DNA of 53,620 nucleotides from a virus, in IMG/VR virus record IMGVR_UViG_3300032323_001239, positions 1 to 53,620 of that record. The stretch is one strand, 5' to 3'. The notes under the pieces are model-generated. The model made no database searches and was not told the origin of the DNA. It was given only the letters and a program-made list of their open reading frames with translations. A program made the translations under genes and the position numbers. Positions within the stretch are counted from its first letter, which is position 1. Every line of letters begins with the position of its first letter. Shown in pieces: positions 31,590 through 35,408 of the stretch.

Positions 31590-32126
31590 ATGAGCGAAAT
31601 AGAATTGTCAGATCGTTTTGACAGAATGAACAGGGTTGTTGAAGAGCTTTTAAAAGGTAGTACGCCAACCCAAATTGCAACGATTACAGGCATACAAAGA
31701 AAAGAAGTTCTTGAGCTGATAGACGACTGGAAAGATGTCGTTCATAATGATAGCAACATAAGAGACCGTGCAAGAGAGGCAATCTCTGGTGCGGATCAAC
31801 ACTATGCAATGCTTATTAAAGAGGCTTGGAAGACAGTAGAGGATGCAGATCAGTCTGGTCAACTAGCAGTCAAGTCTGGATCTCTAAAGCTTATCGCTGA
31901 TATAGAAACTAAAAGAATTGCAATGTTGCAGTCTATTGGAGTTCTTGAAAATAATGAGATTGCATCTCAAATTGCAGAGACAGAGCGTAAGCAAGATATA
32001 CTTGTTAAGATTTTAAAAGAAGTAACTTCAACATGCCCTAAGTGCAAGATGGATGTTGCTAAAAGGTTATCTCAGATAACTGGAGTAGTTGAGTCAGTTC
32101 CAGTAGAGGAATCCGATGTCGTTTGA
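31590..32126 (+). CDS. terS: Terminase small subunit
   Basis: 178 aa, directly before the large subunit and overlapping it by 11 nt. The N-terminal HTH (STPTQIATITGIQRKEVLEL) suits DNA recognition, the long central helices (about 60-130) suit ring oligomerisation, and the C-terminus has CPKC. Small terminases bind the packaging site and stimulate the large subunit. No ribosome site is visible; the perfect promoter 7 nt upstream predicts leaderless translation. Confidence 0.85.
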   Translation: MSEIELSDRFDRMNRVVEELLKGSTPTQIATITGIQRKEVLELIDDWKDVVHNDSNIRDRAREAISGADQHYAMLIKEAWKTVEDADQSGQLAVKSGSLKLIADIETKRIAMLQSIGVLENNEIASQIAETERKQDILVKILKEVTSTCPKCKMDVAKRLSQITGVVESVPVEESDVV

Positions 32127-33918
32127 GTTTACAGACCTTATCGACATGCTTGACGGGGAGGAGTTCGATGAAAAACCAGTCGATCTTAGAACGTTTGTTA
32201 GAAGTCCAGAATACCTTGGGCTTCCAGAACTTTCCGACTACCAGTACACGCTTATTGAAAAAAGTTCTCAAATCTACAAAGAAGCAACACTTGTCAAACT
32301 ATTTGGAGAAGAAGAGGGACGAGTAAGGTTTAAGCAAACTGCAAATGAAGTAGTTGCTCAGCTCGGCAAAGGATCTGGAAAAGATTACTGCTCTACTATT
32401 GCTGTTGCATATATTGTATACTTATTGCTGTGCCTAAAAGATCCAGCAACTTATTATGGAAAGCCTCCAGGGGACAGCATTGATATTATTAACATTGCTA
32501 TCAACTCTCAACAGGCAAGCAACGTTTTCTTTAAAGGCTTCAAGACAAGAATTGAAAAGTCCCCTTGGTTTGCAGGTAGATACACAGATAAAGCAGCTGA
32601 GGTTAAGTTTGATAAAGCAATCACAGTCCACTCTGGCCACTCTGAGCGTGAAGCTTGGGAAGGCTATAACGTTATTGTTGTTATCCTTGACGAAATTTCA
32701 GGATTCGCAATCGAAAATACAACTGGGCATGATCAGGCAAAAACGGGTGCCGCCATATATGACATGTACCGTGCATCAGTAGACTCCCGCTTTCCAGATT
32801 TTGGTAAAGTAATTCTTCTATCCTTTCCTAGATATAAAAATGACTACATTCAGCAAAGATATAATGCTGTAGTTGCAGACGTCGAAACAATTGTTCGTGA
32901 TTATAAGTTTAAAATGGATGAAGATTTGCCAGATGGAACACAGGGAAATGAATTTGAAATTCAGTGGGAAGAAGATCATATTCTTTCTTACAAGATCCCT
33001 AGAGTATATGCTTTAAAGAGGCCTACATGGGAAGTTAACCCAGTAAGAAAGATAGATGATTTTAAGGTTGCATTTTTTACAAACCCTCTTGACGCTCTTT
33101 CAAGATTTGCTTGCATGCCACCAGATGCCGTAGATGCATTCTTTAAGTCAAGAGAAAAAGTAGAGAAAGCTTTTAACAAAGCGCACCTAGCTGTAGATAA
33201 CTTTGGTAGACTAGAAGAATGGTTTATACCAGATCCAGATAAAGAATATTTTATACATGTTGACCTTGCTCAAAAGCATGACCATTGTGCAGTTGCAATG
33301 GCACATGTTAATAAATGGGTTAACGTAAAGGTAACAGATACATACTCTCAGCCAGCACCAATTGTTGAAATAGATGCAGTTAGATTCTGGACGCCAACAA
33401 AAGATAAGTCTGTAGACTTTACCGAAGTAAAAGATTATATTCTTTCATTAAAAACACGAGGATTTAAAATTCGTGTATGTACCTTTGACAGATGGAATTC
33501 ACATGATATGATGCAACAACTAAAACAATATGGCATCAATACAGAAATTCTATCTGTCGCTAAAAAGCACTACGACGATATGGCAATGGTTGTAGCAGAA
33601 GAGAGAGTGGTTGGACCACATATTCCTTTATTAATTGATGAACTATTACAATTAAGAATTATGAGAGATAAGGTAGACCACCCACGAAAAGGCTCTAAGG
33701 ACTTGGCGGACGCAGTATGTGGATCAATCTATAACGCAATAAGTAGAAGTAAATTTGATTCTAATCAGGAAGTAAATATTCATACTTACGAATCAATGAG
33801 CTATGACAATGATTTTGGAACAGCAGCAGATGGAGAAACAAGTTCCTATAACTTAATTAGGGCTCCAAGAATGCCAGAAAACTTAAAGGACGCAATGGAC
33901 AGGATGCAAATAATATGA
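32116..33918 (+). CDS. terL: Terminase large subunit
   Basis: 600 aa. ATPase domain: Walker A GKGSGKD (84-90) and Walker B VVILDEIS (D192, E193). Nuclease domain of the RNase H type: D383 (HVDLAQKHDHCAVA), a middle acid in CTFDRWNSHDMM, and D529/D532 (KDLADAV). It cuts and pumps DNA into the capsid. Unusually, no portal gene follows; tRNAs and accessory genes do, so the portal/capsid block must lie outside the window. Confidence 0.96.
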   Translation: MSFEFTDLIDMLDGEEFDEKPVDLRTFVRSPEYLGLPELSDYQYTLIEKSSQIYKEATLVKLFGEEEGRVRFKQTANEVVAQLGKGSGKDYCSTIAVAYIVYLLLCLKDPATYYGKPPGDSIDIINIAINSQQASNVFFKGFKTRIEKSPWFAGRYTDKAAEVKFDKAITVHSGHSEREAWEGYNVIVVILDEISGFAIENTTGHDQAKTGAAIYDMYRASVDSRFPDFGKVILLSFPRYKNDYIQQRYNAVVADVETIVRDYKFKMDEDLPDGTQGNEFEIQWEEDHILSYKIPRVYALKRPTWEVNPVRKIDDFKVAFFTNPLDALSRFACMPPDAVDAFFKSREKVEKAFNKAHLAVDNFGRLEEWFIPDPDKEYFIHVDLAQKHDHCAVAMAHVNKWVNVKVTDTYSQPAPIVEIDAVRFWTPTKDKSVDFTEVKDYILSLKTRGFKIRVCTFDRWNSHDMMQQLKQYGINTEILSVAKKHYDDMAMVVAEERVVGPHIPLLIDELLQLRIMRDKVDHPRKGSKDLADAVCGSIYNAISRSKFDSNQEVNIHTYESMSYDNDFGTAADGETSSYNLIRAPRMPENLKDAMDRMQII

Positions 33919-34585: not shown

Positions 34586-34658
34586 GCCTTCGTAGCTCAG
34601 AGGACAGAGCAGGACTCTTCTAAGGTCTTGGTCGCAGGTTCGACTCCTGCCGAGGGCG
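34586..34658 (+). tRNA. tRNA-Arg (TCT)
   Basis: Acceptor GCCTTCG/CGAGGGC, D arm GCTC/GAGC, loop CTTCTAA (anticodon TCT), T arm GCAGG-TTCGACT-CCTGC, discriminator G. It reads AGA/AGG; AGA is the main Arg codon in the genes here. Confidence 0.92.
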
Positions 34659-34663
34659 CAAAG

Positions 34664-34736
34664 GTCCTTATAGCCCAGCGGTAGAGGCGGTAGACTTAAA
34701 ATCTATACAGCGTTGGTTCGAATCCAACTAGGGACA
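34664..34736 (+). tRNA. tRNA-Leu (TAA) without the long variable arm
   Basis: Acceptor GTCCTTA/TAGGGAC, anticodon stem GTAGA/TCTAT with loop CTTAAAA (anticodon TAA), a 5-nt variable loop ACAGC, T arm GTTGG-TTCGAAT-CCAAC, discriminator A. Only 73 nt: bacterial Leu tRNAs normally carry a long variable arm (about 85 nt), which is absent here. Confidence 0.85.
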
Positions 34737-34744
34737 CGTAACAT

Positions 34745-34818
34745 GCGGATGTTGCATATTGGTAGTGCCTCTGCCTTCCAAGCAGAAGGGGTGAGTTCGA
34801 TTCTCATCATCCGCTCCA
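34745..34818 (+). tRNA. tRNA-Gly (TCC)
   Basis: Acceptor GCGGATG/CATCCGC, anticodon stem TCTGC/GCAGA with loop CTTCCAA (anticodon TCC), T arm GTGAG-TTCGATT-CTCAT, discriminator T, then an encoded CCA, unlike the other tRNAs here. It reads GGA, a very common codon in the window. Confidence 0.92.
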
Positions 34819-34823
34819 AAATT

Positions 34824-34832
34824 TGATATAAT
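34824..34832 (+). promoter_or_regulatory. Extended -10 promoter for hsp20
   Basis: TGA-TATAAT starts 6 nt after the CCA end of tRNA-Gly. No clear -35. The expected start, near 34839, coincides with the first base pairs of the leader hairpin. Confidence 0.65.
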
Positions 34833-34837
34833 AGTAT

Positions 34838-34890
34838 TAGGTCGCCAATAGGGGCCTATAAATTAACTTATTCGCTTGAAAGGGGAATAA
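34838..34890 (+). promoter_or_regulatory. ROSE-like RNA thermometer in the hsp20 leader
   Basis: Hairpin 1 (34838-34858): TAGGTCGCC pairs with GGGGCCTA, with one bulged G and an AATA loop. Hairpin 2 (34868-34890): TTATTCGCTT pairs with AGGGGAATAA, covering the whole ribosome site, with loop GAA and a single G-G opposition (G74/G84). The anti-SD strand reads UUCGCUU, which fits the UYGCU signature of ROSE thermometers, where the same G-G pair melts with heat. The ATG is 1 nt after the stem. Known ROSE elements precede small heat-shock genes, as here. Confidence 0.7.
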
Positions 34891-34891
34891 A

Positions 34892-35314
34892 ATGGTACAA
34901 ACATATACATGGGATCTTTTTAAGGATCCTTTTTTTATTGGATTCGATAGAGCTTTAGATACATGGAGCCACGCTCAAACAGTATCAAGTGCAACTAATT
35001 ATCCACCATATAACGTAATCAAGGTAGACGAAGACAACTTTGTTGTCGAACTAGCAGTTGCTGGATTTGCTAAAACAGATATTGATGTATCGACAGCAGA
35101 CGGCAAACTCACCGTAAAGGGAGAATTAAACACAGAGGATAACGATTCGAAGTTTATCCACCGTGGAATTGCTGCCCGTAAATTTACTCGTGAGTGGGCA
35201 CTTGGTGAATATATGGAAGTAAAGGCAGCGGAACTAAAGGATGGAATGCTTAAGATTGATATTGTACGCATCCTGCCAGAAGAGAAGAAGCCGAAGACTA
35301 TCAAGATCAAATAA
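34892..35314 (+). CDS. Small heat shock protein (Hsp20)
   Basis: 140 aa with an alpha-crystallin domain (about residues 35-125): YNVIKVDEDNFVVELAVAGF, ADGKLTVKGEL, GIAARKFTREWALGEYMEV and AELKDGMLKIDI. The C-terminus (EEKKPKTIKIK) carries an I-x-I-type tail motif for oligomer assembly. These ATP-independent chaperones hold unfolding proteins; phage copies may protect virion assembly. The gene has its own promoter and a leader hairpin over the ribosome site, so temperature control of translation is likely. Confidence 0.95.
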   Translation: MVQTYTWDLFKDPFFIGFDRALDTWSHAQTVSSATNYPPYNVIKVDEDNFVVELAVAGFAKTDIDVSTADGKLTVKGELNTEDNDSKFIHRGIAARKFTREWALGEYMEVKAAELKDGMLKIDIVRILPEEKKPKTIKIK

Positions 35315-35318
35315 ATAG

Positions 35319-35324
35319 TATAAT
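35319..35324 (+). promoter_or_regulatory. -10 box before the thermonuclease leader
   Basis: A perfect TATAAT, with no clear -35. It sits 4 nt before the start of a structured leader and 85 nt before the gene. Confidence 0.5.
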
Positions 35325-35327
35325 AGA

Positions 35328-35402
35328 AATCTGCACCCCGTCACTGGGGAGTCGCAGATTGGACCTGAGCATGTCCTCAAACTGCTCATTATTAATGAGA
35401 GG
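35328..35402 (+). ncRNA. Structured leader RNA of the thermonuclease gene
   Basis: Helix A: AATCTGC (35328-35334) with GCAGATT (35354-35360), enclosing CCCC/GGGG (35336-35339/35346-35349). Helix B: TGAGCA (35366-35371) with TGCTCA (35383-35388). Helix C: CTCAT (35385-35389) with ATGAG (35395-35399), next to and partly over the GAGAGG ribosome site. B and C share bases and cannot both form; GGAC/GTCC (35361-35364/35373-35376) is a further alternative. This is the layout of a translational switch. Confidence 0.5.
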
Positions 35403-35408
35403 CACAAA

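Follow-up and report, generated by a model that had tools for sequence, protein, structure and literature searches.

In proven ROSE RNA thermometers, imperfect pairing holds translation low and yields on warming, and deletion of an unpaired G lowers or abolishes the response, according to PMC3669281 and PMC11342760 and, for ROSE-G, PMC12857270. The first two sources also define the U(U/C)GCU motif that pairs with the Shine-Dalgarno (SD) sequence. The leader of the hsp20 gene in virus record IMGVR_UViG_3300032323_001239, analysed over its full 53,620 bases (the window), is probably a short ROSE-like RNA thermometer; on the basis of the computational analysis described here, we put the probability of this reading at about 75%. 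The leader consists of two hairpins, of which hairpin 2 covers the SD site (Table 1).

The short ROSE-like leader of Pseudomonas ibpA has the same build, with two hairpins in about 60 nucleotides, a U(U/C)GCU-SD pairing in hairpin 2, a stable first hairpin and a small heat-shock gene behind it, and PMC3669281 describes the Pseudomonas thermometers as validated. It is, however, bacterial, and the parts of PMC3669281 consulted here describe no bulged G like the one conserved in hairpin 1 of the phage leaders. The ibpA and ibpB leaders of Escherichia coli share with the phage family the CUC[G]CU..AGGAG hairpin at the SD and an IbpA-type protein; in ibpA, too, a hairpin further upstream contains a bulged G, GACCU[G]UCCA..UGGAAGGUC. 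They differ in having further or different 5' hairpins, with no bulged G in hairpin 1 of ibpB, and the Rfam family of ibpA, ROSE_2 (RF01832), leaves the phage leaders unmatched. The rhizobial ROSE element (RF00435) likewise pairs a UUGCU with a bulged G to GGAGGA, but it and ROSE_3 have other 5' hairpins, and neither model matches the window.

ROSE-G (PMC12857270) places an anti-SD G opposite an SD G, as in the GAAAGGGG form found in the window. It differs from the phage family in carrying CUGCU before ABC-transporter genes, whereas the phage leaders carry UCGCU before hsp20 and about half of them have no opposing G. The leader does not qualify as ROSE-G, as its motif is UCGCU rather than CUGCU and the G-G opposition is absent from the GAAGGAGG relatives, nor as a fourU thermometer, its anti-SD strand being UUAUUCGCUU. 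Thermometers or candidates have been described in phage genomes, namely, lambda cIII, the fourU element of SPbeta blyA, and a fourU element at a sigma-70 gene of Caudoviricetes (PMC4166951, PMC11182007); in contrast to the present leader, these are not ROSE-like, do not precede hsp20, and are single cases rather than a family. In the open-access literature, we found no prior report on RNA thermometers with phage hsp20 leaders, be it in cyanophages or in phages of actinobacteria, and leaders go unmentioned in a paper on small heat-shock genes of cyanophages. The claim of the earlier note that a ROSE element would be new in an actinophage nevertheless proved too restrictive: phage hsp20 leaders in general have this layout, and ROSE-like candidates before ABC-transporter genes of actinomycetes have already been reported (PMC11342760).

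Pairing of the ribosome site

In hairpin 2, the arm TTATTCGCTT (34868-34877) pairs across a GAA loop with a strand ending in AATAA (34886-34890). G34874 faces G34884 or, in an alternative fold, is bulged, with C34875 paired to G34884. The pattern is the one that defines ROSE: U-A, Y-G, an unpaired G, C-G and U-A against AGGA, with U-G or U-A toward the loop. It reads CUC[G]CUUC..GAAGGAG in E. coli ibpB, CUC[G]CUU..AAGGAG in cyanophages, and UUAUUC[G]CUU..GGAGGAAUAA in the actinophage family, the window having the GGGG form, in which the anti-SD G can also face a G. Such a G-G pair, regarded in the earlier note as the heat-labile element, is thus possible in the window and is found in only about half of the relatives, those of the GAAAGGGG form; the rest, of the GAAGGAGG form, have a simple bulged G. 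Four features make the leader ROSE-like: it lies in the 5' untranslated region of a small heat-shock gene, its 3'-proximal hairpin pairs U(U/C)GCU with the SD (in the relatives as in the window), a bulged G (GAAGGAGG forms) or a G-G or bulged arrangement (GAAAGGGG forms) is predicted within that pairing, and a further hairpin lies on its 5' side.

Three protein-based searches of viral contigs produced 240 loci selected by their proteins; as two of these searches used proteins from loci that the motif had revealed, the set may be slightly biased. The SD is paired in all 240. Both arms of hairpin 2 are exact in 231 loci and jointly changed in the other 9 (represented by locus L057, with AACUCGCUU..GGAGC), and in no case has one arm changed alone. 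Together with motif-based searches, these searches yielded 443 instances with 184 distinct leaders, and wherever the downstream gene could be read (over 400 cases), it was hsp20. A search designed to find the motif before other genes, by requiring a second codon with a first base other than G, yielded 77 loci and again returned hsp20 for each readable downstream protein. The encoded Hsp20 proteins diverge to 37-46% identity, and the first 60 coding bases to a mean identity of 52%, while the arms of hairpin 2 remain unchanged. As the base before hairpin 2, its loop, and the base before the start codon all vary, the invariant blocks coincide with the stem.

An initial viral pattern search with other spacing detected 8 family members with a longer loop. 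A scan of a genome collection gave two chance matches and a single genuine one, again before hsp20, on a contig of a Chitinophagaceae metagenome-assembled genome that is probably a mis-binned phage. A search for further copies of the motif in the window showed no excess over chance.

The two-hairpin leader had thus been placed correctly in the earlier note, both in sequence and in coordinates, and its UCGCU signature, the small heat-shock gene behind it, and the occlusion of the SD all stand. Relatives that carry the gene behind a leader with a free ribosome site, which that note would have counted against a thermometer, were looked for, and the protein-selected loci keep the pairing throughout.

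Hairpin 1 and its bulged G

To judge by its covariation, hairpin 1 is an RNA structure rather than a sequence motif. Among 173 distinct actinophage sequences, pairs P2 to P5, below the bulge, can form in 95-99%, against 44-69% when the partners are shuffled, and GC, CG, AT, TA and wobble pairs replace each other. The one invariant base, kept in all but a single sequence, is a G left unpaired in the 5' strand, with a C-G pair above it in nearly every case. A model-fitted alignment of 67 diverse leaders gave a covariation score of 0.479, compared with 0.162 for shuffled and at most 0.108 for slid structures. All 8 pairs of hairpin 1 and 5 of the 6 outer pairs of hairpin 2 have changed on both sides in this alignment; these changes are not independent events, since the sequences are related and fitting them to the model favours the structure. 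Because two multiple alignments (A1 and A2) put the 3' arm of hairpin 1 in the wrong place where the stem is short, covariation was counted on an anchored set and on other alignments.

A wider set from outside the actinophages tells the same story. A first hairpin with one bulged or G-opposed G is present in 65 of 70 distinct leaders (5% after shuffling), and in every case a C-G pair stands above this G, while the next pair below it can be of any kind. Comparison of the leaders thus shows that the distinguishing feature of the phage family is a bulged G kept in hairpin 1 as well.

The hairpins might merely stabilise the mRNA and fix translation at a constant low level, without any regulation. 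Hairpin 1 is predicted at the extreme 5' end, where hairpins of this kind stabilise transcripts, as discussed for Pseudomonas in PMC3669281, and folding predicts a closed SD at all temperatures. A stabiliser, however, needs neither an invariant bulged G in both hairpins nor a UYGCU/AGGA match, and we consider this explanation improbable.

In the leaders of L057 and L058, hairpin 1 contains the inverted repeat TTGGCACTT-N9-GAGTGCTAA, which, read by eye, agrees at 16 of 18 positions with the CIRCE heat-shock operator, whose consensus we take to be TTAGCACTC-N9-GAGTGCTAA. The repeat lies just downstream of the -10 element, and hairpin 1 of these two loci might double as a binding site for a repressor. 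That hairpin 1 is in general a CIRCE-like DNA operator for a host heat-shock repressor, with the RNA fold as a by-product, is nonetheless very improbable. All other leaders keep the pairing of the repeat but differ freely in its sequence, the opposite of what a repressor site would show, and one strand of the repeat has an extra base. Inspection of the window leader by eye revealed no CIRCE operator, the near match being confined to L057 and L058.

Spread among phages and the surrounding locus

The closest annotated relatives of the Hsp20 protein, at 26-44% identity, are encoded by cyanophages, a pelagiphage, and Methylophilales phages, whose hsp20 leaders contain both hairpin parts. A U(C/U)GCU with a bulged G is paired to the SD in 14 of 16 named phages, and S-TIM5 has an ACGCU version; as the ROSE-like layout precedes hsp20 in 15 of the 16, it is not specific to actinophages. 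Across phages, the outer stem of hairpin 2 shows paired changes (UUAUUC/GGAAUAA, CUC/GAG, UCUU/GAGA, AUAAC/GUUAU and CCAC/GUGG). In sequence comparison, the leader is shown to stay with hsp20 across phages of very different hosts.

Covariance models point the same way. Model R1, built from the actinophage leaders alone, found in the window only the hsp20 leader (81.5 bits; the next match scored 11.7) and located many leaders of the cyanophage, pelagiphage and Methylophilales types at the start codon. Over 66 sources, it returned one leader per locus, two surplus matches being the opposite strand of the same palindromes. The wider model R2 had a single good match per record in S-PM2, P-SSM2, HTVC115P (a pelagiphage) and Melnitz-3, each at hsp20, and it scored the E. 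coli ibpB leader at 18.6 bits (E value of 0.055), at the start codon. Two weak matches, of R2 in cyanophage S-TIM5 (JQ245707.2, 18635-18685, minus strand; 23.6 bits) and of R1 in L207 (2229-2283, minus strand; 23.1 bits), have no gene after them on that strand and are probably chance hairpins.

The Rfam family ROSE_3 (RF02523) falls on the exact leaders of three cyanophages with 27.9, 17.0 and 16.7 bits, against a cut-off of 43; no other family scores better on the S-SKS1 leader (27.9 bits, E value of 0.006), and ROSE_3 also picks those of S-RIM2 and P-SSM2.

In two loci, the leader (L505, 689-750; L514, 680-741) is followed by a small frame of 79 and 71 amino acids, respectively, and then by hsp20, so that it heads an operon; one of these small frames is weakly phasin-like. 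In the Prochlorococcus phage P-HM2 (GU075905.1, 133301-133798), hsp20 is annotated as starting ahead of the leader hairpins, and the start implied by the model is about 70 bases further downstream; the annotation is probably too long.

Table 1. Features of the hsp20 leader and its surroundings in the window
Feature	Positions	Strand	Basis
Terminase gene	32116-33918		about 65% identity to terminases of large Streptomyces phages
tRNA cluster	34586-34818		
Extended -10 promoter TGATATAAT	34824-34832	+	TGNTA(T/C)AAT in 442 of 443 leader instances
Hairpin 1, with 8 base pairs and an AATA tetraloop	34838-34858	+	folding, covariation
Conserved bulged G of hairpin 1	34844	+	kept in 172 of 173 distinct actinophage sequences
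Hairpin 2, ROSE-like, covering the SD site	34868-34890	+	folding and comparison with relatives
UCGCU, the U(U/C)GCU anti-SD motif	34872-34876	+	G34874 bulged or opposed by G34884
SD region AGGGGAA, sequestered in hairpin 2	34881-34887	+	sequence
hsp20 gene, 140 amino acids, IbpA-type small heat-shock protein	34892-35314	+	PF00011, NCBIfam and PHROG matches
Second structured leader, with its own TATAAT	35320-35408		

Downstream of the tRNA cluster, the locus runs from the promoter through hairpin 1, a short A/U-rich linker and hairpin 2 to the start of hsp20. The extended -10 promoter is accompanied by no clear -35 element, and the sole instance in which it is missing is cut by a contig end. 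The promoter belongs to the leader unit, which the earlier note had begun at hairpin 1, and we infer a transcription start at about 34838-34840. The Hsp20 product matches PF00011 (E value of 9.6e-20) and PHROG 432 ("Hsp20"), and its top NCBIfam model is IbpA, at 113 bits, under the cut-off of that model. The label of actinophage given in the earlier note is well founded, owing to the likeness of the terminase to those of Streptomyces phages, and we infer a freshwater host. An Hsp20 match occurs in 496 phage records; despite the closeness of the terminase, the groups listed for these records name neither a Streptomyces nor a Gordonia phage. The hsp20 gene may have been acquired, together with its leader, by an aquatic branch.

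The second structured, modular leader lies between hsp20 and a nuclease (SNase) gene and recurs at this position in over 100 distinct related loci (for example, L001, L020, L236 and L264). It is built of a module CUGCACCCCGUCACUGGGGAGUCGCAG, optional hairpins, and then GGAC-CUGAGCAU-GUCC..AAACUGCUC, and its stem covaries (GGAC/GUCC, AGUC/GACU, ACAC/GUGU and CCAC/GUGG). The joint change of its loop and a strand further downstream (GAG/CUC to GGG/CCC) suggests that a pseudoknot forms ahead of the start codon. Rfam searches with this leader gave chance-level matches only (E value of about 4, on the opposite strand).

Heat sensing and self-repression

In the mechanism that we propose, an mRNA starting near 34838 would carry hairpin 1 at its 5' end, where it may protect the leader or assist its folding. 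Hairpin 2 pairs the SD with UUCGCUU, as the comparison of relatives shows, and, when closed, would keep translation low. The bulged or G-opposed G and the nearby U-G and A-U pairs are expected to make this hairpin labile, so that warming, by analogy with ROSE, would open the SD and allow the chaperone to be made at once.

Several results weigh against a thermometer. The ROSE reading of the earlier note has no counterpart in Rfam, as RF00435, RF01832 and RF02523 gave no match in the window even at an E value of 10, while as a positive control RF01832 recovered E. coli ibpA with 100.4 bits. At the gathering score, Rfam detects only tRNAs in the whole window, and the leader at an E value of 10 has chance-level matches only, none of them to ROSE. 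Computed melting between 5 and 42°C does not open the window leader. The motif is absent from one of the 16 named phages with hsp20, Vibrio phage IBT_VpB-34, and hairpin 2 of the actinophages is nearly invariant, beyond what a thermometer alone requires. 

A chance pairing of an A/U-rich leader with the SD would suit the fold of the single leader, which has a z-score of only -1.25, with 20 of 200 shuffled sequences folding equally well, and the partly hidden SD sites that occur at other genes of the window. Folding this one leader alone is unconvincing as proof beyond chance, and the comparison with relatives settles the question: with the SD paired in every protein-selected locus and a structure that covaries, chance pairing is refuted and its likelihood is practically nil. 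As to melting, none was predicted for E. coli ibpA either; because this proven hairpin also appears closed at 42°C, the simulation cannot decide on thermosensing. The phage hairpins have calculated stabilities of -1.0 to -6.1 kcal/mol, a range that encloses the values for the E. coli and rhizobial ROSE hairpins (-3.9 to -5.9 kcal/mol). By motif and layout, the leader is ROSE-like, but by the Rfam models it does not belong to the ROSE families; we use the term without implying common descent.

The near invariance of hairpin 2 in actinophages hints at a binding partner, and this could be Hsp20 itself. E. coli IbpA represses its own translation by binding the thermometer leader; this depends on an aromatic residue at position 34 and on R93, which RNA binding requires (PMC10474464). 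In the phages, Hsp20 might similarly bind the bulged-G hairpins and block its own translation until unfolded proteins titrate it away. The protein is of the IbpA type, the equivalent of R93 is an arginine in all 154 distinct proteins of the actinophage family, and the position of Y34 is aromatic (Y or F) in nearly all of them. Moreover, two similar, conserved tandem hairpins with bulged Gs resemble paired binding sites, and the leader remains attached to hsp20 or heads the operon that contains it. On the other hand, the R97 position is R in 119, D in 33 and K in 2 of these proteins, and that of K98 is not conserved (T, S, I, E or F), although the E. coli protein requires both charges; R93 is also common to IbpAs of alpha- and gammaproteobacteria and was perhaps inherited for other reasons. 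We regard self-repression by Hsp20, alone or added to heat sensing, as a real possibility and as the main rival or partner mechanism; that the leader is mainly a target of Hsp20, with temperature minor or additive, seems unlikely.

A thermometer and a target of Hsp20 might also be one and the same. Tentatively, the phage hsp20 leaders could form an RNA class of their own, with tandem bulged-G hairpins, of which one covers the SD and the other does not, that are both bound by phage Hsp20 and that read temperature together with free chaperone. If so, this would explain the retention of hairpin 1, an open question for bacterial ROSE.

On the thermometer reading, which we prefer, the spread of the leaders suggests that phages widely control their hsp20 chaperone by RNA thermometers. 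If this is true, phages that abound in marine and fresh waters would carry a thermometer as a regular part of hsp20, the chaperone output of these phages would be tied to water temperature, and hundreds of natural variants would be at hand for study. The retention of the first hairpin of ROSE, which PMC3669281 describes as not fully understood, would narrow to one conserved bulged G and become testable, as would the question of whether self-repression of the IbpA kind accompanies the leader beyond the proteobacteria.
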